DNA from: Halichondria panicea
Lineage: Eukaryota > Porifera > Demospongiae > Suberitida > Halichondriidae
Length of the DNA stretch: 64,000 nt
Direction of reading: 5' to 3'
NCBI RefSeq assembly: GCF_963675165.1
Contig: NC_087382.1
Coordinates: 3,759,963 to 3,823,962, forward strand
Below are positions 46,001 to 59,587 of this stretch, one piece after another. A program made the translations under genes and the position numbers. Positions within the stretch are counted from its first letter, which is position 1. Each line of letters begins with the position of its first letter. Below the pieces are notes generated by a model. It was not told the origin of the DNA and did no database searches. It saw only the letters and a program-made list of their open reading frames with translations.

Positions 46001-49000
46001 CTATTGGGCCTGATATGCACGGTGTTACTGGTGCTCTGGTTTTGTATACTGTGGAAAAGAAGATTGTTAAAGAATTTGTGTGCACTCAAATGGGCCATAT
46101 AGCTACTATATACTTGTCTTGGTCGTCTTTTTCACCTGCATGGAATATAATCTATTTTCAATTTCCACCCTTTCCTTATACGATATTATAGTAGTTTCTA
46201 CAATAAGAACAATTAGTCCGATATCTTTTGGTGTGCACACATGTATATTCTCATGAGCATACCAACTCTACAATCGAAAGTCCCTATACAAAGGCCCAAG
46301 TTCCAGCAACTAATCGCCACACCAACCTGCCCTCTACTAGAGTCAGCCTGCCTACAGATACAGCCGAACATGCTCCAAACTTTCTAAGCCCAAGCACAGC
46401 AGAACCTTCAGAAGTGACTCCACTAATAAACAATTAAACCCTATGTTAATTTGTACATGCACACACAATGAGAAGACACTTTATAATGAAAGTATTCCTT
46501 ATTCAGAACTAGCTATACAGATAATCCCTCGTATAGATTTCTAAGCTCAAGTATATACAGCAGAACCTTCAGAAGTGACTCCGCTAGTGAAAATTGTCAA
46601 TTGTTAATTTGCATGTACATGCACACACACAGTATAATGAAAGTACTATCACAAACCAATCACAAACCAATGAGTACTAGCTCTAGCCTTATTCAGAAAA
46701 CCATTCTTCATAAAATTATCTAGATAGACAAACTGTCTATAGAGGTAATTACCTGAACATGAATATAATTACAAATTGTGTTCAATACAAGGGAAGATGT
46801 GCATGTCCAGCAACTACACACAATCTCCAATACCACACACACACACTAAGCATGCATGCAAGCGTACATGCAGTCTTTGTCTAACCAAGAGCTCATAAAT
46901 AAAGAGAAATAACTTCAGTGTATATATGCTCGAGGCTTACGTTTCGTAAAGTGATTGCCAGTGAAACCGCATTTCTTTATAATTATGGAAAGCCCCCAAA
47001 CCGCAGCGCTGTAAAGGATTCAACCCGTTTTATTTTTACAAATTCCCATTCTCTATATATGGCAATGCAGTCATCACAACGCTCCTATTTAAGGCTCCTG
47101 GTCTAACACAATGCATGTAGTAGCTACATTAGAAGTATTTTAGCAATTATAGCTGCATGCACACATGCAAGTCAAGACAGTTAGCAAGTCAAGTCAAGTT
47201 AAGAGAAGTACTGACTCAGGAACCTGGCTATACAAGGGAAATGGATGGGCAACTTTACAATTTGTCCAACAGTACAAACTGTCTAAATAATATCAGTGAT
47301 TCTGTGATGAAGCAAATCCAAGATTTGAGGATTGTCAGTATAGTCAGCATAGTGCTTTTGGTTCCCACATTGATCTTGCAGCTCTTCTTTATCTGTCGGT
47401 ACAAGTCTACATTTCTACACCGTCAATTCCTATACACAACAGTTGTGATAATATTACTGAATATTATTTTTTGTTTTGATGTTTGCCTTGGGTTTCTTAT
47501 TACCAATACATTGAATCGGTACTTGTTATATGTAGAGATGATGCAAATAACAACCATCCATCTTCTACTCTTGTACAAACTCTGCAAGCACATAGAAACA
47601 AGAACCACGCAACGACTAAAGGCACTTTGCTGCAATATTCGTCCACGGCTATGGCATGAAGTGATGATAGTGTGTATCCAACTCGGCTTCCCATTAGCCT
47701 TACTAATAACTGAGATTGTGGTGATACAGAAAACAAGCTACCATTTAGAGATGATAATTTGTTATATATAGTATTGTGCTGGCAGTCAACATACTATTAG
47801 GCCTGATATGCACAGTATTACTGGTTCTTTGGCTCTGTATGCTGTGGAAAAGAAGATTGTTGAAAAGTAAAGCAAAATTTGTGTGTACCCAAATGGGCCA
47901 CATATTATTCTTCCTAGCCGTTCTTTTTACCTTTAACCTATTAGCTCTGTGTCAATTGTTCCCTTTTCATTATATTAATACAATATTGGATGTAATGCAA
48001 ATATTTCCTCCCGTATCTTTTGGTGTGTATATTCTCATGAGCATATCAAGTCAACAAAGGAGAGTCACTACAAAGGCTCAAGTTCCTGCAACTAATCGCC
48101 ACACCAACCCGCCCTCTACTAGAGTCAGCCTGCCTACAGATACAGCCGAACATGCTCCAAACTTTCTAAGCCCAAGCACAGCAGGACCTTCAGAAGTGAT
48201 ACCACTAATAAACAATTAAACCCTGTTGTTAATTTGTACATGTACACACAATGAGAAGACACTTTATAATGAAAGTATTATCACAAACCATAATAGCCTT
48301 ATTCAGAACTAGCTATACAGATAACTCCCTCGTATAGATAGTCAACTGCCCAAATAGTGGTAAGTCCAAATGTGAATTAAAGTTGTGTACACAATAACCC
48401 TTTCCTTGCCATTCGTGAAATCTGGAACAGGAGCGTCTTTAGGTCGATCAATTAGTGTGGATCCGGCCTCACCACGCCTCCATGTCATTCTATTAGTCTA
48501 GATCCGGCTAGCAATTCTAGCTGGGACTCCCAGTTCTAGCTCCTTTTGTTTAGCGTGTCAGAGACTGGGAGAAGATGATTGGCACTCCCTGGCTCCTTTG
48601 GATGTACAGCTGTCCAGATCCCTAGAACATACCCTCCATTCTGACGAGTTATCAGTGCATAGGGTGCTTACTAGATTCTTGCCAGCCAGTACAGTTCAAG
48701 CTACACACAGCACCGCTCAACTATTCTCTACCCCATTATCTAGCTAAATCTGGTCCAACTAGACAGCAGACACAGCTAGTTAATTCAGTAAAGCCAGGGG
48801 TAGCCCTACTTCTACGGTTGTTCAGTACCCACGGTAACAATTCCTCTGGGCTGGGCTAACTAGTTGAGCCACGCCTCACAATTCTCAAGGCTAGGTACAT
48901 GTCTCTGTCTAGCTGCTTCTTCAGCTTCTTGCTCAGTTTTGTGGCTTAGAGAAAGGCCAGCTACTCAGGGGGAAGAGTCCAGATGAAAGTCTGGCAGCCA

Positions 49001-52000
49001 GGTGACGTCCAAACGGTCAGTTATTCTTTCCACCAACTTTTTAATCTAGTCTAGTCCTGCTTGCACTGCTACTACTGCTACTGCTACTCTTCCTACTACT
49101 ACTGCTGCTACTCTTCCTAGCTAGTCAAAGGTTTCTTTTTTTTTATTTTTTTTTATAACTACATATGCACAAAGAGACATCAAAGCTTACATCAAAGGAC
49201 ACAGATTTTTAGCCTACTTGACTGATAAGGCGGTTACCTAGACTACAGTTTGTTTGTCAGGGAGGAGCTCACATACAACTTCATCTAATTCATCATAACG
49301 ATTCCTTACCCATTGTTGTAATTTCTACAACAGATTGCCAAGGAAAGAGATAAGGGAAGGTCAGTAATGACACTGAGATTGCAATTCTTGTGGCCTAGGG
49401 GTTAGATGATGGTGATGCCAGCAACCTGTGTACTTGTTACAGCCAAGGGTTTATCAACCAGTGGTCATAAGTCCTTGGTTACACACAATGAATATCTGAC
49501 ACATTAGCAAGTCTTCACTCACAGCTATTTTACCGAAAGTACTATACAAAAGCAAGTCTTTGTCTAACACACAATACACGCAGTAGCCATATACATGTAC
49601 ACACTAGAAGTATAGTTTAGCACGCAGTAGAACTAGCTACACGGCAAGAAAAGAATCTGGCTATACAAGAGAAATGGATGGACTAGTTCACTATGATGAG
49701 GACAACAACACATACTGTCCAAATATCACCACTGAATTTGTGATAAAGCAGCTCCTCCCTGTTCTTCACATTTCTAGTATAATTGGCATAGTGATATTGG
49801 TTCCCACATTGATCTTGCAGCTCTTCTTTATCTACCGATACAAGTCTACATTTCTACACCGTCAATTCCTCTACACAACAGTTGTTGTCATACTACTGAA
49901 TGTAATCTACATTATATACCCAATCACAGTTGATGTCGGTTGCCCTTTCTTTTACCTACTTGTGAATAGTTTGAATCGGTACTTGTTCTATGTTGAGATG
50001 ATGCAAATGACAACCATTCATAATATCCTCCTGTACAAGCTCTGCAAGCACATGGAAACAAGAACCATGCAACGACTACAGGAACTTTGCTGCAATATTC
50101 GTCCACGCCTGTGGCATGAAGTGATTTTAGTGTGTATTCAAGTTGGCCTCCCAATACCCATAATAATAACTGAGATTGTGGTGATATTGAAAGCACCTTT
50201 AATCATAGATGACCTTGAAGAATTCGAAAAGAAAGGCTTTATTAGACCTCTGCTGATAGTTAACGTACTATTAGGTCTGATATGCATAGTATTACTGGTT
50301 AGTTGGTTTGGTATGTTGTGGAAAAGAAGATTTTTGAGAAATAAAGTAAAATTTGTGTGCACTCAAATGGGCCACATATTTTTTGTCTTAGTTGTCATTT
50401 TAACCTGGAACATAATATATTTGTATTCAGAGTTTAAATATCTTCTAGTAATAATTTCTGTAATAAGAACATTTAGCCCCGTATCTTTTGGTGTGTACAT
50501 TTTTATGAGTCTACCAAATCTTCAAAGGAATCTCACTACAAAAGCCCAAGTTCGTGCAACTAATCACCACACCAACCCACCCTCTACTAGAGTCAGCCTG
50601 CCTACAGATACAGCCGAACATGCTCCAAACTTTCTAAGTCGAAGCACAGCAGAATCTTCAGAAGTGACTCCGCTAGTGAACAATGAAACCTTATTGTAAT
50701 CTAGCTAGTAAAAGCACATTATACAAACACACAATGAGAACACACTCTAATGAAAGTAATTATGTCACGAGTACTAGCTCTAGCCTTATTTAAAACTAGC
50801 TGCTACAGATAACCTCATTCGAAGATAACTAACTGAACATGAATATAATTACTGTAACAATTGTTCAACATAAGGGGAGGCTGTTATTCTCTCTAAACAA
50901 GCTCAGTCAACAACACAAGCTATCAAGCAAGCTGCTCTAGTTAGAAAGAAAGACGAATGAGTACCTTGATACCTGCTCTTCAAGCTACACTAGTAGACAA
51001 CAATGAATATGATATTTTTAGTAAAAGCATTTGCTTCAAAGACATTACAGAGGAGCAGAGACAGCAGGTCCAAGCCATTGGTATATCAGGTGTGATATGT
51101 TTCTTTGTCCTCTTACTACCAATCCTGGTACTAGAGGCGCACTACATCTTTGGACATCGCTCCAACTTTCTACTGAGATTGTTTTTCTATATGACACTAT
51201 CGGCTACTTTGTTAGACGCAGTTTACGGTTCATACACTATCACACAAGTGGATTTCAAATGGACGTGCAGTATAATAGATTATGCTCTGTACGTGCAAGT
51301 AATTCTCGTGCTGGCTATAAACTTTGTTCTACTAACTATGATGTACAAGTACATACGTGGTGTCAGAATGTACTCTACGAAAAACATTTGTTGTGCCTAT
51401 CCAAAAGCCAACGAAATGATATTTGTAGTTTGCCTATTTGTTCTCCCGTTAATCGTTCCTATAATCGAAATTGTTATGCAGCAAAATCCTATGGAGAAAA
51501 ATCTCGAACTTAGGTACACTATCGACCGTATTTTCTACACTCTAGTAGCTATAGCTTTGATATTGTGTGTACTTTGCACTGTGTTACTAACAAGCTGGTT
51601 CGTCATGATGATAAGGAATGATCTACTGAGGAACAGAATTGGTCTATTGTGTAGGGAAATGAGTTTATTCATATGGTTTATCGTCTTCGTTTTACTATGG
51701 GGTGTGGCTACAATTATCGAGGCCCTGGATTTAAACTATGCCTGGTACGCAATCTTCCCGATAGTTCAAACCATCACTCCGGTGTCGTTTTTCATCTACA
51801 TTTGGTTAACGTACGAACAAAAACAAAAGACAACTACCCACTCCCCACACACCCTCACACACCGCACACACGCCCTCCCACTTTCGTCACGAGTCAGCCT
51901 CGATTCAGATACAAACAAACGTGCTCTGGTATTTCTAAGTCCAAGCACTTCAGAGCCAACAGAAGTGACTCCACTTGTGAACAATGGTACCACTACTGTG

Positions 52001-55000
52001 TAGATGATTATGGTATAATATATCTTAGTCATTGTGTATATGTAGTATCTATTGATAATGTACCAATGAATATTGTATTACTAGAATGTTTGCAAAGTTT
52101 GATCATTTCGCAAAAATTATTAAATGGTAATGACACACAATCTTTGCCAGAAAACAATAGTTCGATAGCAAACAGGGTTACATTTTCACCTGATATAAAA
52201 TATATGGCTCATTTGTAAAGATTAGATTTTCATCTGCAAAATATTCTAGTAATACGCCTGTTATACAAACAACACAGTATACAGTATATAATAAATCAAA
52301 ATAATAAATCAAGAGTTCATAATAAAAGAGAGAGAGTATCGAACAAAGCCTTGCCTTGCATCAGATGTATCAGAAAAGTAACGTGACTTCCTGCTTGGTA
52401 ACTGACCAATCCGGGCACCTACCATGGAGCTGACACTTGCCTATTGCCTTAATTGATCATCACGCGTTTCAGACAGGAAGTCACATTACCTTCCGAATAC
52501 ATCCGATGCAAGGCAAGGCTTTGTTCGATACTCTCTCTCTTTTATTGGTATAATGCGTACTAAATTACCTTAGTTATAACTCATAATTATACAGTGTAGT
52601 CGATATAAACTAGTCTCGTTACCAGGCCATTTATTGTAACGTTTGGATATATACACGTATGTATTAATTTTTGAACTTAAATTCTTCTATTCTAACTGAG
52701 AAGGATGAGGCTACATGTATATATAGCGGCTACAGACTCACTTCGAAGAACTGGTCAAACAGGAGCTGCAGGTTGGCCTGCTCGTTGTGCTTGTGATGGA
52801 CTCTCTTGGGCAGCTGGAGAGAGAAGTCGTAGCCCATCTGACTCGTACGTGTCACATGACCACACCTGTGTGGGTGTGAGGGGTGGAGTGGGTGGGGTGA
52901 TTAGTTAGTTATATGAACAGTAAGCACACAAAAAAGTTGATTTTAAATATTATAAGACAACCAAAGGACTTAAATTTGGGCCTGATTGATAAATTAATCA
53001 TCAATTGATAGGCCTCCATCTTTTAAAATTGAACTTTCTAAAGCGCAGGCGTTTATCAATTAGACTGTGTATAATTAACTTACTCTTTGCAGACAATCTT
53101 GTGCTCAATATTGCTCTCAAAATTCATCACTACGGGAGATGTGGAATTTGCCGTTGTGTCATTTTTGGAGCCTGTGTTTCCGTGGGAACTGTCATTGCCA
53201 TGGTTACCAACATGTTGGGCATCATCCTTCAACTGATCCAAACACATGCTCAGTAGCTCATGAGCATCCTCAATAATTGAATACACAGTGAACATTTTAT
53301 AATTAGTAACATACGTACGTAAAAATAAATCGTATATGTAAGTTCCTCTGCATTTTTAGAGTACCACATAAAAACAGCCCAAAATAGACTTTGATTTAAG
53401 GCGCCATCTTAACGAGCTCATTGTAAGCTTTCAGAAAATCATAAAATTAACATTATTGGAACAACGGAACTAAATATATAGGGCCATTTAAGGATACTTA
53501 GTTTATACGTTGGGTCGTCGACATATACATGCATGCGTACTACTGTACAGTGTTTGTGCTGTAGTGGATCCTTACCTGTTGTCTGAATCCAACAAATTTC
53601 AGAGTGTTGACTGAAATAGTCGACTTTATCTTCTTCAGCAGTATTCTCTGGTTCTCAAAACTGTCCTTACATCTCTTACACTTGAGCAGCATCACCACCA
53701 TCCTGTGAGATAGACACAGTGGACACTCAAAGTTAGCAACCAATTAACAAGACTTGCTATACTTAGCCAATCAAAAGCCTCACACGCTAAACACATCATT
53801 TAATAAATCTTCTTTAGAGCTACAGAACGCATTATTTCCTTCTGAAATTGAACCTTCCAAACTCAAGTTATGGGCAGTCAAAGTTAGCTAGCAAAATTAT
53901 TTCGAGATGCTTTTCAAAGGCAACACTTGGTTACCTGTAGAGGGAGTTTGGGTGCACGTTTCTGACCAGTTGAGGGGATAACAGATCCTCGGCAAAAGGG
54001 TACAGTCCGAGCAGGCTTTGCAGTACTGCGTTCATGTAGCACGTGTTGCCAAGATTAGCAAACCTGTAATAGTAAAAAGGTCGAGGAAAGAAATCGTGTG
54101 TGAGTGTGTGTGTATATATCCATGCAGATACATTATTATACAAGAAAGTTGTATACATACATGTAGTAATAATTATGGAAATTGACTTGAAAATGCCGCA
54201 ATGTAATTAATGTGCACTGTCAGCACTCTCACCCGTCTGGATCAGCCTCTGATCTCAGCAGCTGTTCCAGTCTCCCGTTACCCTTGGTAACAGATGCGCT
54301 GTTGCCCCTAGCAACATTGCCGACCTGAGGCACGGTACTGAGAGTGCCCAGAGGTGGGCGCTGCGTCTTGGGGGTGGAGTCTCGTGGAGGTCTAGAGGGG
54401 ATAAAAGTTCATAGATAAAGTAGGTAAAGTAGGTAAAATTGTACATTGCAAGTAACTAAACAACTCTACTTTCTTTCTTGCTACCCACGGTACTTCCATT
54501 TGTATATAACTGGGTCCAATCAATGTACGTAATATGTACAGTACAGGTAGTTCAAGCAAGTCATACGGCCAGTGTATACACAACAATAATTATAATGATT
54601 CATAGTTACGGGAGAGGGTCTGCAGGTCTATGCATTGTGCCCATCACCGAGGTACATAATCATTATTACTACTTTACAATAGACCTACACACATTTACAT
54701 GAATATATTTGATGATCATTTCATCCGCTCTTATATACCTGAAGTTTGGAGAAGGTAAGAAATCATCGCTCTCTGCGCTGTCTAGAACAAGCATCCTCTT
54801 TGCTGACTTATTGGCACCAGATCTTTCACCACTAGACAACAGTGTGGGGGGGAGACTAGAGTCCGCAGGGGACCCGTAAAACGAGTTAGTCTTGTAATTG
54901 TTTGACGGAGTGCTTTTGTTGTTGGACTTGGCTGCGGCTACCATGGAGGCCCCTCTCCAATTACGAGGACTGAAAAGTAAAATTGAAGTAACAACGGGCA

Positions 55001-55776
55001 TACAAATTAATGTACATACACTATTTCAGATACATTTATTTTGAGCAACTAAATAATATTACTGTTTCACTTACTGTGGAATAAGACTATAAGCTCTTTT
55101 CTTTTTAACCGATAAACATTGTTGTTCACTGGGTGAGCGTCGATTCAACACCAAGGGGGGCGGGGTCTGTCCAACTACAGGGCCACGCCCACTAGCATCA
55201 ATCACTGGATAGAGTAAAAAAATTGATTCAATAAAACATATGAAATTATAGAAAAAACACTGGAAATTTTTTAATACCTGCTGGGAAGGTACCATGAAAG
55301 AGCCCCTCTAGTTGTCTATGCAGTTGCCCTAGTGATCGTCTATCTTGTACATCAGTAAGGACGATGGTATCCCACTCCTGATTGTAAACTGTCACCGAGA
55401 GACGACCTTCGTTAATTCGAGTGGCCGCCACTGATTTGAGATCACGACGTGAGAACTGTGTGGGTGGTGGTGTGTAGTGTGCGAGGGGGTGGTGTGTGAG
55501 TGTGTGTGTTTTGTGTGCGAGGGGCCGGGGTGGGGGTGAATGCGTTTTGTGGGTGTGTGTGATTATGCTTAGTACATTGCATCGATTGTATGTTTGTTTG
55601 TTTACCTTCATTTTCTTCAATTTCCCCATCCCAGCCCCCTCCAGCATAAAACACGGCTGAGAGCCACCTAACACGGCCAGGGACAACTTGCAACTATGCT
55701 GCACCGGATGACGCGTCCCTCCCGCGAAGTGAAGCTTGACTGTGCACTGAAAGCTCACTAGAACCTCTGATTCCAT
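40014..55776 (-). CDS. USP37: USP37-type ubiquitin carboxyl-terminal hydrolase, 18 coding exons
   Basis: Exons (coding order): 55776-55606, 55455-55278, 55204-55075, 54969-54739, 54391-54233, 54063-53935, 53702-53576, 53268-53084, 52865-52742, 43367-43288, 43031-42931, 42684-42627, 42111-41058, 40856-40784, 40733-40630, 40538-40490, 40367-40229, 40053-40014. Every junction is GT-AG and every phase matches, giving 1043 residues (human USP37 is 979). Family signs: N-terminal PH-like region (1-116); Cys box GFANLGNTCYMN with catalytic Cys about 298; FVGFRQQDAHELL; a Cys pair CTSCGC; HLKRYGYN; and a His box GHYISDVY with His about 986. Between the catalytic halves lie a KEN triplet (about 568), an IVILDSDDE stretch resembling a SUMO-interacting motif, and three UIM-like helices (about 770, 900, 925). 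Expected role: removal of ubiquitin chains in cell-cycle control. Intron 43368-52741 hosts five receptor copies. The last tiny exon is the least certain. Confidence 0.9.
42200..42480. mobile_element. MITE in a USP37 intron
   Basis: Inverted arms include AATGTTATGATTTTCTGAAAG (left) and CTTTCAGAAAATCATAACATT (right), plus GATCCAAT/ATTGGATC. A related fragment lies at about 53430-53475. An open frame through the element is incidental. Confidence 0.65.
43564..43600 (+). promoter_or_regulatory. TATA box of copy 43712
   Basis: TATATAAGCCAGGG at 43564 follows CCCCCCTCCCTCCC, as in copy 20531. The initiator is reduced to TTGTCTAGCTACATCAG. Confidence 0.5.
43712..44742 (+). pseudogene. Receptor copy with duplicated loop 2 and one T-run frameshift
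   Basis: It is open from ATGGATGGACTGGAT at 43712 through TM4, then shifted by one base near a run of eight T (44258-44265). The other frame continues through TM5, TM6, TM7 and the tail to 44742. Apart from this one shift it looks intact. Loop 2 is unusual: CKHIETRTKQRLQALCC is followed by a second CKNIETRPIQRLRACC, an in-frame internal duplication of about 22 residues also present in 20531. The tail ends AEYLLMND, so the usual EVTPLVNN is replaced, though it still holds E-x-L-L. It lies inside the USP37 intron on the opposite strand. A sequencing or assembly slip in the T run is a real alternative to a dead gene. Confidence 0.7.
44743..45239 (+). other. Duplicated 3' flank, spacer
   Basis: Parts of the conserved 3' flank recur (TTATTTGTACATGCACACTCT). 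An isolated GCTATCTTTTGGTGTGTATATTC near 45168 is a TM7 scrap. No gene. Confidence 0.45.
45240..45740 (+). repeat. CA-tailed dispersed repeat, copy 3
   Basis: The core at 45420-45680 matches 3245-3540, and its 3' part matches the inverted copy at 35732-35860. It ends with TAGCAGTCTACACACACAGAC and a GC-rich terminus (CCGTATACATCGCTTGCGCATGC). This copy is not interrupted by the MITE. The left boundary is uncertain. Confidence 0.6.
45905..46437 (+). pseudogene. Receptor 3' fragment fused to a leader
   Basis: A type-A-like upstream region (TATAATTATAAGCAAGTCTTTGTCTAG near 45810) and leader end at CACCAAAA. The sequence then jumps to the end of TM4 (TTGGTGATATTTAAAACACC). TM5 is open. A deletion in AAGAATTTGTGTGC (AAAGTGAAA missing) and insertions in TM6 and TM7 break the frame. 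The tail (from about 46297) is near consensus and ends SEVTPLINN. A second isolated tail piece lies at 46532-46600. Confidence 0.8.
46880..47160 (+). promoter_or_regulatory. Type-B module of copy 47241
   Basis: From GAGCTCATAAATAAAGAG to GCTCCTATTTAAGGCTCCTGG (ATTTAAGG at 47087) and the GTCTAACACAATGCATG initiator. Complete and close to the 18345 module. Confidence 0.6.
47241..48219 (+). pseudogene. Receptor copy with one frameshift in a TA run
   Basis: The family start ATGGATGGGCAACTT is at 47241; an upstream in-frame ATG at 47157 lies in the leader and is unlikely to be used. TM1-TM4 are open. Near 47763 TGTTATATATAGTATTG has four more bases (TATA) than TGTTATAGTATTG in the related copy 5400, shifting the frame. 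From 47776 TM5, TM6, TM7 and the tail are intact (ends SEVIPLINN). No other damage is seen, so it may be freshly inactivated, polymorphic or mis-assembled. Loop 3 (WLCMLWKRRLLKSK) and TM6 (FFLAVLFTFNLLALCQLF) are closest to 5400. Confidence 0.75.
48220..48399 (+). other. Conserved receptor 3' flank
   Basis: Standard 3' flank with TTGTACATGTACACACAATGAG and ATAGTCAACTGCCCAAATAG, truncated by the insertion at 48400. Confidence 0.5.
48400..49352. mobile_element. Probable transposon insertion next to the distal module
   Basis: As at 31234, the flank GTTGTGTACA and the distal module start (AAGGTCAGTAATGAC) are separated here, by about 950 bp. CCCTTTCCTTGCCATT at the left and ATTGCCAAGGAAAGAGATAAGGG at the right form an imperfect inverted end. 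The interior has CTACTACTGCTG simple repeats (about 49063-49118) and no recognisable protein. Confidence 0.55.
49353..49552 (+). promoter_or_regulatory. Distal module and TATA-like box of gene 49674
   Basis: The distal module is complete from AAGGTCAGTAATGAC to GGTTACACACAATG. TATACAAAAGCAAGTCTTTG at 49543 precedes GTCTAACACACAATACACG. Confidence 0.55.
49674..50699 (+). CDS. Seven-transmembrane receptor-like protein, array member, intact
   Basis: This is an intronless frame of 341 residues, MDGLVHYDEDNNTYCPNITT at the start (sequons NNT, NIT). The helices follow the family pattern: TM1 SSIIGIVILVPTLILQLFF, TM3 entered at CPFFYLLVNSLNRYLFYVEM, TM4 GLPIPIIITEIVVIL, TM6 CTQMGHIFFVLVVILTWN, TM7 PVSFGVYIFMS. 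After TM4 the loop is acidic (IIDDLEEFEKKG). The tail has small changes (RNLTTKAQVRATNHHT, FLSRSTAESS) and ends SEVTPLVNNETLL. It lies within the large USP37 intron, transcribed opposite to USP37. Pseudogene 13904 has a similar N-terminus. Confidence 0.85.
   Translation: MDGLVHYDEDNNTYCPNITTEFVIKQLLPVLHISSIIGIVILVPTLILQLFFIYRYKSTFLHRQFLYTTVVVILLNVIYIIYPITVDVGCPFFYLLVNSLNRYLFYVEMMQMTTIHNILLYKLCKHMETRTMQRLQELCCNIRPRLWHEVILVCIQVGLPIPIIITEIVVILKAPLIIDDLEEFEKKGFIRPLLIVNVLLGLICIVLLVSWFGMLWKRRFLRNKVKFVCTQMGHIFFVLVVILTWNIIYLYSEFKYLLVIISVIRTFSPVSFGVYIFMSLPNLQRNLTTKAQVRATNHHTNPPSTRVSLPTDTAEHAPNFLSRSTAESSEVTPLVNNETLL
50957..52003 (+). CDS. Divergent seven-transmembrane receptor-like protein, possible founder
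   Basis: This is an intronless frame of 348 residues starting ATGAGTACC. It shares the seven-helix layout and scattered motifs with the array (HRSNFLLRLFFY for loop 1; MYKYIRG after TM3; CTVLLTSWFVMM in TM5; TPVSFFIYIWL in TM7) but is far more divergent than any two array copies. The N-terminus is longer (about 46 residues before TM1) and its promoter lacks the array TATA/initiator block. Its tail contains a Thr/His-rich stretch and then SSRVSLDSDT and FLSPSTSEPTEVTPLVNN, nearly the same protein sequence as the array although codons differ. It is the last copy, within the USP37 intron. I infer an older paralogue, perhaps near the origin of the array. Confidence 0.85.
   Translation: MSTLIPALQATLVDNNEYDIFSKSICFKDITEEQRQQVQAIGISGVICFFVLLLPILVLEAHYIFGHRSNFLLRLFFYMTLSATLLDAVYGSYTITQVDFKWTCSIIDYALYVQVILVLAINFVLLTMMYKYIRGVRMYSTKNICCAYPKANEMIFVVCLFVLPLIVPIIEIVMQQNPMEKNLELRYTIDRIFYTLVAIALILCVLCTVLLTSWFVMMIRNDLLRNRIGLLCREMSLFIWFIVFVLLWGVATIIEALDLNYAWYAIFPIVQTITPVSFFIYIWLTYEQKQKTTTHSPHTLTHRTHALPLSSRVSLDSDTNKRALVFLSPSTSEPTEVTPLVNNGTTTV
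52004..52320 (+). other. 3' flank of gene 50957
   Basis: Unlike the array 3' flanks. AATAAAGAG-like and AATAATAAATC sequences near 52290-52330 may serve in polyadenylation. No other gene is seen. Confidence 0.35.
52321..52546. mobile_element. MITE with about 45-bp TIRs, 226 bp
   Basis: The left arm AATAAAAGAGAGAGAGTATC with GAACAAAGCCTTGCCTTGCATC and the right arm GATGCAAGGCAAGGC with TTTGTTCGATACTCTCTCTC are inverted. The interior matches 13440-13620. It sits in the USP37 intron. Confidence 0.8.
53725..53895. repeat. Dispersed intronic repeat
   Basis: ACTCAAAGTTAGC occurs at both edges (about 53727 and 53877), with GAAATTGAACCTTCCAAACTC between. Related pieces occur at 40140-40215 and inverted at about 61330-61375 (AAGGTCCAATTTCAAAAAGC). 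The 40140 copy would produce a spurious C-terminal extension of USP37 if read through. Confidence 0.5.
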
Positions 55777-55841
55777 CTTAAAGTAGCTATTTGGTACTGA
55801 TCGTTACCAGTAAAAGCGTAATTGTACTTTTGTGACTGTGT

Positions 55842-56796
55842 GGGCGGTGGTCCGGTGCAGCATAGTTGCAAGTTGTCCCTGGCCGTGTTAGGTGGCTCTC
55901 AGCCGTGTTTTATGCTGGAGGGGGCTGGGATGGGGAAATTGAAGAAAATGAAGGTAAACAAACAAACATACAATCGATGCAATGTACTAAGCATAATCAC
56001 ACACACCCACAAAACGCATTCACCCCCACCCTGGCCCCTCGCACACAAAACACACACACTCACACACCACCCCCTCGCACACTTTTTCCTTCGATCCGCC
56101 ACAATGAAATCAGGGATATCACTGCCGACCTACTCACAGAAATCTGTCATGATGTCTCGGTGGAACCTGATCTCCAACCCCTGACTGGCGAAACCCTTGC
56201 TCACAGAACCGCCAATATATCGGATGGTGCCAGACTTGATGTCTCCATGAAGGGGTTCTGGGGAGGACGCCAAGAGAAGACATTCCTGGATGTCCGGGTG
56301 TTTAACCCACATGCTCCGTCAAACAAAAACTCTAGCATTACAAACTGTTACAAAAAGCACGAAAATGGAAAAAAAAGAGCTTATGAGCAACGAATCCGAG
56401 ATGTCGAACACTCAACCTTCACTCCAATAGCCCTTTCGGCCACAGGGGGCATGGCAAAACAGTCCACAACATTCTACAAGCGACTTGCCTCTCGTCTAGC
56501 TGAAAAATGGGAGCAGACATACTGCTCAACCCTGTACTGGCTACGTGCCCGCCTGTCTTTCTCTCTACTGAGATCTGCAATACAATGTATCCGTGGCGCC
56601 CGCTCATCTAGGGGCCACGCTGTGAAGTCCTCGCCAATTGATCTGATCAGCAGCGAGGCAAGCCTCCACTCCTAGCTACCTGGAGGAAAACTGAATTAAA
56701 GATATAATTTATAACATTACAATTATTTTTCTTGACTTGCTCCCACTACTATGTTGTACACGAAAAAAAAAAAAAAAAAAAAAAAAGGGCGGTGGT
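55842..56796 (+). mobile_element. Chimeric LINE insertion carrying USP37 exon 1 and intron 1 sequence
   Basis: Target duplications GGGCGGTGGT lie at 55842-55851 and 56787-56796. Inside, 55851-56082 is a 232-bp copy of USP37 sense sequence (source 55708-55477 on the minus strand: the later part of exon 1, the GTAAAC splice donor and about 130 bp of intron 1). I see one difference between the two. At 56083 it changes to a LINE 3' segment: an open frame to TAG at 56675 with FPSIRHNEIRDITADLL, FWGGRQEKTFLDVRVFNPHA, YKKHENGKKRAYEQRI, STFYKRLASRLAEKW and SLLRSAIQCIRGARS. This resembles the C-terminal end of a non-LTR retrotransposon polyprotein. A 3' untranslated part and 24 A (56763-56786) follow. 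The whole insert is non-functional as a retroelement. Confidence 0.9.
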
Positions 56797-56945: not shown

Positions 56946-59587
56946 ATGGGAAGATTTGGCCTGGATAAGAAAGCACTGTTTTGCTTGTGTGCTGTACTTG
57001 GTTTAGGCATCTTGTTGATGTACGTGTCTCTGTTTCTGGAGAGGGAGCGAGACGATAATATGAAGGTGGGCGGGGCTGGCTGCTATGCCCAGAGTGTTTT
57101 TTTTTATAGAAACTGTTTTCAGTCATGAGTCTAGATATTTCTGGTATGCCCACAAAACAGCAATCTAAACCAACAGCTTTTATATAATTATATAGGCTCT
57201 CTCATTCTCAGCTATAGCTAGTTTAATATTTATATAGAAACTGCTTTCATTGATCAGTATTTCCGGAATGCCAATGTAGCTGTCTGTTTGTAACTTAAGC
57301 CCCCTACCAATATTTCAATATAGTTGAAATAGCTATATCTGTATATCGATATAGTAGCAATGTATAAACCAACAGCTTTATATATTGGCACTGGTATAAA
57401 TATCAAGATTCGTGGCTTAAGGCAGTTGAACTTGAGTCTCCTGTTATCGATATCTATATATCTCGTACCCAAGTAGCTCTTTCAACTATAGTTGAAATAT
57501 CTATGTCTGTCCTGACATTTCTACAGGCTTCTTTAAAGTTGCCTCAAGTGTTGAGACGTTCCTATGTGCACCTCAGCCAGAGCAAAGAGATCATTATGAA
57601 CAAGATTGCTCTCATCAGGGCCGAGGGAAAACAAAAACTCATTGTAAGCCAATCTAATCTCATGGATAATGTTCTAACTTGTGTTTAGGTGGTCAGTGAT
57701 TTTGACTTGACACTAACCAAGTACCGCGTCAAAGGTCAACTGGGAATGACTTCATATCGTAAGGATTATATGCTTGCGGCTATTTTCTCGACCATTCTTG
57801 TATTGGTCCTCCATTTTTCAGGTGTTGTGGATACTTCACTACAAATGTCCGAGGCTTATCGTCAAGAGGTTTGTTGTTTTGTTTGATCCAATTTCAGCAA
57901 AACAAAATTTAAATTCCTATAAATACAGGCACTGTCACTGAGGGATCTCTACGCTCCCATTGAGCATAACCAGTAAGAAACTACACTATGCAACAAAAAT
58001 ATTTTTCTCCTAATGCATCATAAATACATCATCATCGTAATACATAATACACTATTTTGCAGAGATCTTTCACTCCAAGAAAGAGCTCAAGCTATGGAAG
58101 ACTGGTAGGAATGGTTTACTCCCATCCATTAGATATGTACTTTGATCACAGTGTATGTCAATTATTTTGTGTAGGACTACAGGTGCCAATGACTTGCTTG
58201 TCAAACATCAGCTGAGGAGAGATGATATTCCAAACATTGTGGCTAAAGCTAACGTAGAGCTGAGGTACAGGACATGCATGAGTATAATAAGTAATTGATG
58301 TATCATACCGTATAGCGAGTAATTTTTGACGATCGCAAATTGTGGTGATAGCATTTTTTAACGGACTTGTATATTGAACATGCTCCACTTCCGCTGCTTT
58401 TTGGTCCTCGAAAATTACCCGCTATACGATAGTTGGAAACTTATCTTGCCCCCCCCCACACAAAAATTATTATACGTTAAAAATACTTGTATGCAACCAT
58501 TGTCTAAAGCGTCAAATCCAGTTTCTTTTCTTTTTTGCACAGACCTCACTACCACCTCTTCTCAGAGCTCCTCTCTGCTGAGAATATTCCACTGCTAATA
58601 TTTTCTGCTGGTCTGTGGGACTCTGTCTCAGAGATACTGGAGCAGCAACAAGGGCCCCTAGGGGACAATGCACACATTGTGTCTAATAGACTTGTGTTCA
58701 ATAAGGCTGGAGTTGCAGTCGATTATCAAAGGCCCGTGATACACAGTTATAGGAAAGGAACGATTCCTGATCGTTTTATGGACGTGAAGAACTCTATACA
58801 GGTGAGCTTACAATTCATCTGTTACCATAACAGGAGTGCATGAATAATAAATAGTGGGACATTTTCGCTACATGTATTTGGCTCGAGAGCCCTCAGAAGA
58901 AATGTTCTTAGGTTGTAATATTCGTGTTTCAATGCCAAGATCTTTGTACTATTGTTGCATTTTGTTTTGACTAAGAAAATTACGACTCGTTCGGCTTCAA
59001 AATTTCTGCAGCAGGAACAAAACCTGACATTGCAGTAGTGCCCAGCCTCACGTCCACCACACCTATGCTTGTGTTCTGTCATTCGTATAATAATCTGTGT
59101 CCACGCCCAACTATCTATGTTTGTGTGTGTGTGTACAGTCATTTGTATAATCCTCATTATACAGGGTAGGTACAACGTGGTGTTGCTAGGAGACACTCTC
59201 TCGGACACTAAGATGACTGCTGGACTGGAGAGAGTAGATCATGTGATCAAGATTGGATTCCTAAACTCTAATGTAAGTACTTTTTCATCATGCATACAGT
59301 TGTTGTGCATTTACATGCGTTGGTAAATTAGCTCGGTTGGCTTCCAAAAAATGTTTGTTAAGTATACAAATCAAAACGTTTCATTAAAAAGCTGTACCAT
59401 TTATAGTTTGTGGGTTGTAGCAAGAGTTGGTTGTATGTACATGCAGCGTAGTCTTCAATCATCATGTGCTCCCTCTATACAGGAGAAAGAGTTGATGTCC
59501 AAATATAAGGAACGTTTCGATATTGTTCTGACAGGAGACCCTGACTTGAGCACACCTCTGTGTGTACTCAAAACTATACTAGAGTAG
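56946..59587 (+). CDS. NT5C3A: Cytosolic 5'-nucleotidase III-like protein, 10 exons
   Basis: Exons: 56946-57065, 57527-57643, 57689-57758, 57822-57868, 57929-57972, 58063-58104, 58175-58264, 58543-58801, 59165-59272, 59483-59587. All GT-AG, phases agree; 333 residues plus TAG, as in animal NT5C3 proteins (about 300-336). Residues about 9-29 form a hydrophobic N-terminal segment (a signal anchor is likely). HAD-phosphatase motifs: DFDLTLT with nucleophile Asp about 83, IFSAG (motif II), a YRKG Lys region, and LLGDTLSDTKM (motif IV acidic pair). Expected reaction: dephosphorylation of pyrimidine nucleoside monophosphates. It is divergent from USP37 (the chimeric LINE lies between) and convergent with the TRIQK-like gene. 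Symbol by family resemblance; a and b paralogues cannot be told apart here. Confidence 0.9.
58307..58432. mobile_element. CCGTATAGCG-family MITE in nucleotidase intron 7
   Basis: ACCGTATAGCGAGTAATTTTTG at the left and CGAAAATTACCCGCTATACG at the right are inverted. Another half-copy starts at about 62611 in a WDTC1 intron. Confidence 0.8.

Follow-up and report, generated by a model that had tools for sequence, protein, structure and literature searches.

A truncated LINE joined to an inverted copy of the adjacent USP-family gene start in the sponge Halichondria panicea

The analysed window, a stretch of 64,000 nucleotides from the Halichondria panicea genome (NC_087382.1, positions 3,759,963 to 3,823,962), contains a LINE insertion that most likely represents a rare natural case of a joining error already seen in laboratory experiments. 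Two target-site duplications (TSDs) enclose an inverted copy of the start of a neighbouring USP-family gene, a 5'-truncated LINE and an A tail (Table 1), and this chimeric structure is real and clean. Its probable origin is the insertion of the LINE by target-primed reverse transcription (TPRT), followed by DNA synthesis on nearby chromosomal DNA before the 5' end was joined, with a snap-back as the most likely form of that synthesis.

Table 1. Features of the chimeric insertion and of its source, in window coordinates.
Feature	Position	Strand	Remarks
Left TSD, GGGCGGTGGT	55842..55851	+	10 bp, exact
Inverted copy of 55476-55708	55851..56083	+	232/233 identical; first base common with the TSD
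Single T at the junction of gene copy and LINE	56084	+	Given there by neither source; non-templated or ambiguous
5'-truncated LINE: C-terminal 195 codons of the RT polyprotein and 3' UTR	56085..56762	+	
A tail, 24 nt	56763..56786	+	
Right TSD, GGGCGGTGGT	56787..56796	+	10 bp, exact; directly 3' of the A tail
Source region in the USP-family gene (exon 1, 103 nt; intron 1, 130 nt)	55476..55708	-	
Exon 1 coding part if ATG 55776 is used	55606..55776	-	Upstream in-frame stop at 55806

The insertion bears the marks of TPRT, namely an exact 10-bp repeat of GGGCGGTGGT, a run of 24 As set against its second occurrence, and an element whose family encodes a reverse transcriptase (RT) and has other copies, confirming the TSD-bounded chimera with a 5'-truncated LINE that an initial annotation had described. 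The near-perfect inverted repeat across the gene start, given there as 232 bp, is likewise present, its arms (55476-55708 and 55851-56083) measuring 233 nt each, lying 142 nt apart and differing by one mismatch; a repeat of this kind is not produced by chance. The sole difference between the arms is a C-to-T change at 56032 in the inserted copy, where the source has a CpG, as expected from deamination at a CpG or from an RT error. The TSD, the copy and the LINE adjoin within 0-1 nt, indicating a single-step insertion. About 1 nt of sequence is common to both partners at each of the two junctions, which therefore do not look homology-driven.

These borders bear directly on a two-step history, in which an ordinary truncated LINE insertion was followed later by a replication template switch that added the inverted copy. 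Template-switch inversions occur generally, but here the copy starts right at the end of the TSD and LINE homology follows after 1-2 nt. A subsequent event would seldom coincide with both borders, so this history is improbable. Mis-assembly is another known fate of inverted repeats; yet the copy lies within a TSD-bounded, A-tailed insertion, carries a private base and is separated from its source by 142 nt, features that make an assembly fold-back unlikely and leave an artefact, as an account of the locus, with scarcely any probability. Elsewhere in the window, segments 58306-58339 and 58398-58431 form a 34-bp inverted repeat, 79% complementary, with its arms 58 nt apart.

A search of the sponge's own genome (131.5 Mb in 39 contigs) with 55457-55851 returned 37 matches, comprising the query itself, the inverted copy and 35 weaker matches (71-88% identity), all of the latter confined to the first 114 query bases, which form the GT-rich end of the intron. 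The search skips very common words and does not establish uniqueness; besides the source, the inverted copy and the weak GT-rich matches, it revealed no other copy of the 233-nt piece. The result weighs on the proposal that the chimera already existed as an RNA, formed by ligation or splicing, before it was inserted close to its source gene. In the available excerpts of PMC13174262, ligation of RNAs ahead of retrotransposition figures as a published model for U6/L1, and human mRNA/LINE-1 chimeras are attributed preferentially to cis- or trans-splicing. For the window, however, the junction is no splice site, it would take a coincidence for the chimera to land about 140 nt from the very gene that had provided its RNA, and a further copy of the chimera was not found in the own-genome search, rendering a preformed chimeric RNA very improbable.

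A genome search with 56080-56790 gave at least 44 matches, the window's own stretch among them, and eight LINE loci were cut out, consisting of the window itself and seven others (L002-L008). Six of these (L002-L006 and L008) contain LINE coding sequence upstream of the point at which the window copy is truncated, and L007 is truncated further 3' and has a 14-bp TSD. A LINE family that normally contains the gene piece, the possibility which the initial annotation held against its own reading, was looked for in these seven other loci and is ruled out, the relatives carrying ordinary coding sequence at that place.

The window LINE shows 97.6% identity to L043 over 676 bases and has no stop within its 195 codons. 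The open frame of L043 extends over 756 aa, with a match to Pfam RVT_1 (E 1.5e-5, 25.2 bits) that lies under the 29.6 cut-off, and the 195 aa of the window LINE match no Pfam family. An alignment of 14 LINE proteins displays the motifs DASNAFN, TTQGDPLA and YADD, which we take to be RT-like, together with a block conserved at the C-terminus (C-x-C, H, C, RHN, ARLD and DVRV), a candidate restriction-like endonuclease of the R2/CRE/NeSL type (CCHC plus PD-(D/E)XK-like). Compared with PDB sequences, the profile of this alignment matched only two ribosomal L34 chains, both insignificantly (E 0.47 and 0.61), with no RT and no confirmation of the endonuclease, and the L043 protein gave no match up to E 0.01.

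LINE copies of different families are located at the ends, or close to the ends, of interspersed repeats that also occur at other loci (L043, about 4195; L073, 1418-1508; L079, 485-586 and the 3' flank; the L002 3' flank; L083, 289-631; L084, 474-555; L046, 4732-4823), which hints at a target preference, and one of these interspersed repeats contains a stretch like TACTGCAATTTACGATTACC. In the flanks of L007, L055, L067 and L002, the insertions fall within a motif resembling GGCCTGGGATCGAGGCTAG or close to it, and this motif may represent a SINE-like target.

The gene that supplied the copy runs on the minus strand, with the exon 1 donor at 55606 and the start of exon 2 at 55455, both splice sites picked by eye. 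Intron 1 accordingly covers 55456-55605 (150 nt), of which the copy holds 130 nt, and the copy is sense to the gene with its intron retained. A UCH (ubiquitin-hydrolase) domain is encoded downstream (Pfam E 5.4e-9), and the best PDB sequence matches of the product are USP36, a 'hydrolase 6' and USP28. For the N-terminal 116 aa, Pfam gave no match and PDB a single, insignificant chain (E 1.4). What had been annotated as exon 1 plus intron 1 of USP37 in sense orientation is thus upheld as to the sense, the kept intron and a ubiquitin-hydrolase gene, while the name USP37 is not established.

The first in-frame ATG of this gene is at 55776, with the insertion some 66 bp upstream of it, and the context of this ATG, AAGATGG, counts under the start-codon context rule as better than that of ATG 55647, TTTATGC. 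ATG 55776 lies in an open frame, 68 bp upstream of the breakpoint at 55708. If it is used, this breakpoint corresponds to codon 23 and, as read from the sequence, would fall within the coding frame and not at a transcription start. The breakpoint at 55476 falls within intron 1, with exon 2 beginning 21 nt further on, and the copied piece is bounded by a splice site at neither end. On the other side of the insertion, a plus-strand open frame with its ATG at 56946 probably represents a divergent gene. Further away in the window, three consecutive plus-strand open frames (47133-47771, 49608-50699 and 50945-52003, encoding 212, 363 and 352 aa) have, judged by eye, the appearance of multi-pass membrane proteins, the first two being similar to each other.

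In the preferred course of events, the LINE would have inserted by TPRT upstream of the gene's first in-frame ATG, and an early halt of reverse transcription would have produced the 5' truncation. Before the cDNA 3' end met the upstream flank, synthesis would have proceeded on nearby chromosomal DNA for 233 nt, and the extended product would then have been joined to the TSD end. A snap-back would begin with priming on the minus strand at 55476 by the cDNA 3' end, to which one A had been added, and extension would reach 55708; alternatively, the upstream plus-strand 3' end could fold back and be copied leftwards from 55708, giving the same product. The 233 copied nucleotides would end 133 nt short of the presumed first nick, which counts against the snap-back, since cDNA synthesis on the minus strand could have reached 55841; the lack of evident homology to guide the priming, with about 1 nt common at each junction, counts against it as well.

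Reverse-complemented nearby target DNA is present between the LINE 5' end and the upstream flank. The snap-back is supported by the occurrence of the piece only here and at its source, by its absence from the LINE relatives, and by an orientation and side such as a 5'-flank DNA template must give; the DNA template and the priming strand end are what we infer from these observations. A DNA template is favoured because it explains the inversion, the origin on the 5' side and the disregard of splice sites without extra assumptions, and because R2 snap-back junctions provide an experimental precedent. RNA landmarks appear to be disregarded at both ends, one breakpoint (55476) being intronic and the other (55708) falling within the open frame that starts at ATG 55776.

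The main competitor is the template that the initial annotation named first, the nascent unspliced pre-mRNA of the USP-family gene, to which the RT would have switched from the LINE RNA, entering in intron 1 and copying 5'-ward. The gene-sense copy, its retained intron and its end toward the gene's 5' end agree with such a switch, and an RNA 5' end would explain the stop 133 nt before the nick if transcription began near 55708; yet the copy has a splice site at neither end, the better start-codon context suggests a transcription start upstream of 55776, arguing against 55708, and the switch requires that the gene happened to lie in the right orientation and on the right side. According to the available excerpts of the published work, the extra T at the LINE junction fits the non-templated nucleotide addition known for the R2 polymerase (PMC2718515), and switching of LINE RTs to other RNAs is well documented (PMC2104539, PMC13174262), whereas extra-template RNA in R2 work is almost always U6 (PMC11371274), and human mRNA/lncRNA chimeras mostly involve a near full-length LINE-1, with six precisely at splice donors (PMC13174262). 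Capture of the pre-mRNA is therefore possible but not favoured. The annotated view of a LINE-mediated single event that copied the adjacent gene stands, with local DNA preferred as its template.

The frequency of such junctions was surveyed by comparing LINE-internal 5' boundaries among 47 oriented sequences from 42 distinct loci. The boundary rule gave 23 rows. Four were set aside, L071 and L076 because a tandem repeat forms their boundary, L062 because its LINE runs on further upstream than the boundary as called, and L067 because it seems to be internally deleted, leaving 19 usable junctions. Only one of these 19, the window's own, has at its LINE 5' junction a local inverted copy of near-identical sequence. 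Repeats at four others (L068, L055, L044 and L045) are read otherwise than as local template copies. In the remaining 14, whose upstream flanks were examined over lengths between about 480 bp and several kb, no local repeat reaching 22 bp and 88% identity occurs within 20 bp of the boundary. The sample is small and non-random, with seven of the 19 chosen as truncated copies from two LINE families. The search for other LINE copies joined to gene pieces, as initially suggested, was in this way carried out for local copies with only the window positive, and the lack of a second convincing case counts against the snap-back.

Several loci were considered as further examples and rejected. L068 has 571-bp inverted arms near its LINE 5' end, but these are only 91% alike, whereas its LINE is about 98-99% alike to relatives, and L064 has the same flank sequence after the LINE; the arms of L068 thus look like an older repeat used as target. 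The 3' flanks of L064 and L068 contain a common repeat of more than 600 bp (96% alike), of which an inverted copy at 91-93% occurs upstream in L068. L055 has a palindromic target, L044 and L045 have a tandem or repeated target, and L057 has its arms on the 3' side. In the excluded L067, 408 bp (918-1325) separate the 16-bp TSD from the 3' LINE part and hold a cysteine-rich frame with one weak tblastx match to L047; this segment may be the 5' start of the same LINE in an internally deleted copy.

Parallels to the window are found in several known systems, as presented in the available excerpts of the reports cited. R2 transgene insertions in human cells include snap-back junctions, formed when a DNA strand close by serves as template for extending the 3' end of the cDNA (PMC11371274, PMC11331408), nearby rDNA being the less frequent form of R2 snap-back (PMC11371274); rare snap-backs are mentioned also in PMC12222951, and no lengths of snap-backs onto rDNA were found in these excerpts. 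As in the window, the cDNA end is joined to reverse-complemented nearby target DNA before 5' closure, but the R2 cases are laboratory events at rDNA, whereas the window holds a natural event at a protein-coding locus, involving another LINE family and 233 copied nucleotides. The published snap-backs onto target DNA are those of R2, to which kinship is unsupported by the PDB profile search, and this counts against a snap-back in the window. Natural 5' junctions of Drosophila R1 and R2 also contain extra target-derived sequence, in their case short 28S duplications (16-27 nt in R1 rearrangements, attributed to upstream target sequence in the element RNA), with no inverted copies described in the excerpts of PMC2718515.

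Fold-back inversions at yeast double-strand breaks, ranging from 2 to about 150 bp and mostly below 14 bp, resemble the window in having a local inverted templated copy at a DNA end, with the other end joined through little homology; unlike the window, they were primed at a 10-nt imperfect inverted microhomology and arose without a retrotransposon insertion (PMC11724301, available excerpts). WEIRD, Mg-SINE, MGL and U6-L1 share with the window a foreign piece at the LINE 5' end and short direct repeats, but their partners are other RNAs, whereas the piece in the window comes from the immediate flank and is inverted (PMC2104539, available excerpts). Excerpts of PMC13174262 describe 17 human mRNA/lncRNA-LINE-1 chimeras, six joined precisely at splice donors and four more not judgeable. 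The mRNA chimeras carry, like the window, a sense piece of a gene's 5' part at the LINE 5' end with a TSD and an A tail; they mostly consist of a near full-length LINE and exon pieces, in contrast to the truncated LINE, kept intron and adjacent source gene of the window. In the accessible part of the open-licence literature, we found no report of a natural LINE that carries its own flank as an inverted copy.

The inverted repeat also has a predicted consequence for RNA from the locus. The minimum free energy calculated for a minus-strand RNA across both arms (608 nt) is -522.1 kcal/mol, against a mean of -192.2 kcal/mol for the same 608 nt shuffled (n=20), and a minus-strand transcript spanning both arms would be predicted to fold as a hairpin. 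If the template was nascent pre-mRNA, junctions of this type would record transcription at the integration site; it is doubtful, though, that the RT, on entering the promoter region of the gene, captured its nascent unspliced transcript here, leaving a fossil of co-transcriptional RNA with a hairpin that could yield dsRNA against that gene if transcribed. The class of mechanism is already known, and the locus is a good natural example of it and not a new phenomenon. The insertion suggests that the snap-back of cDNA onto target DNA, known from R2 transgenes, also takes place in natural LINE integration, where it can create a long inverted repeat over a gene start in one step.
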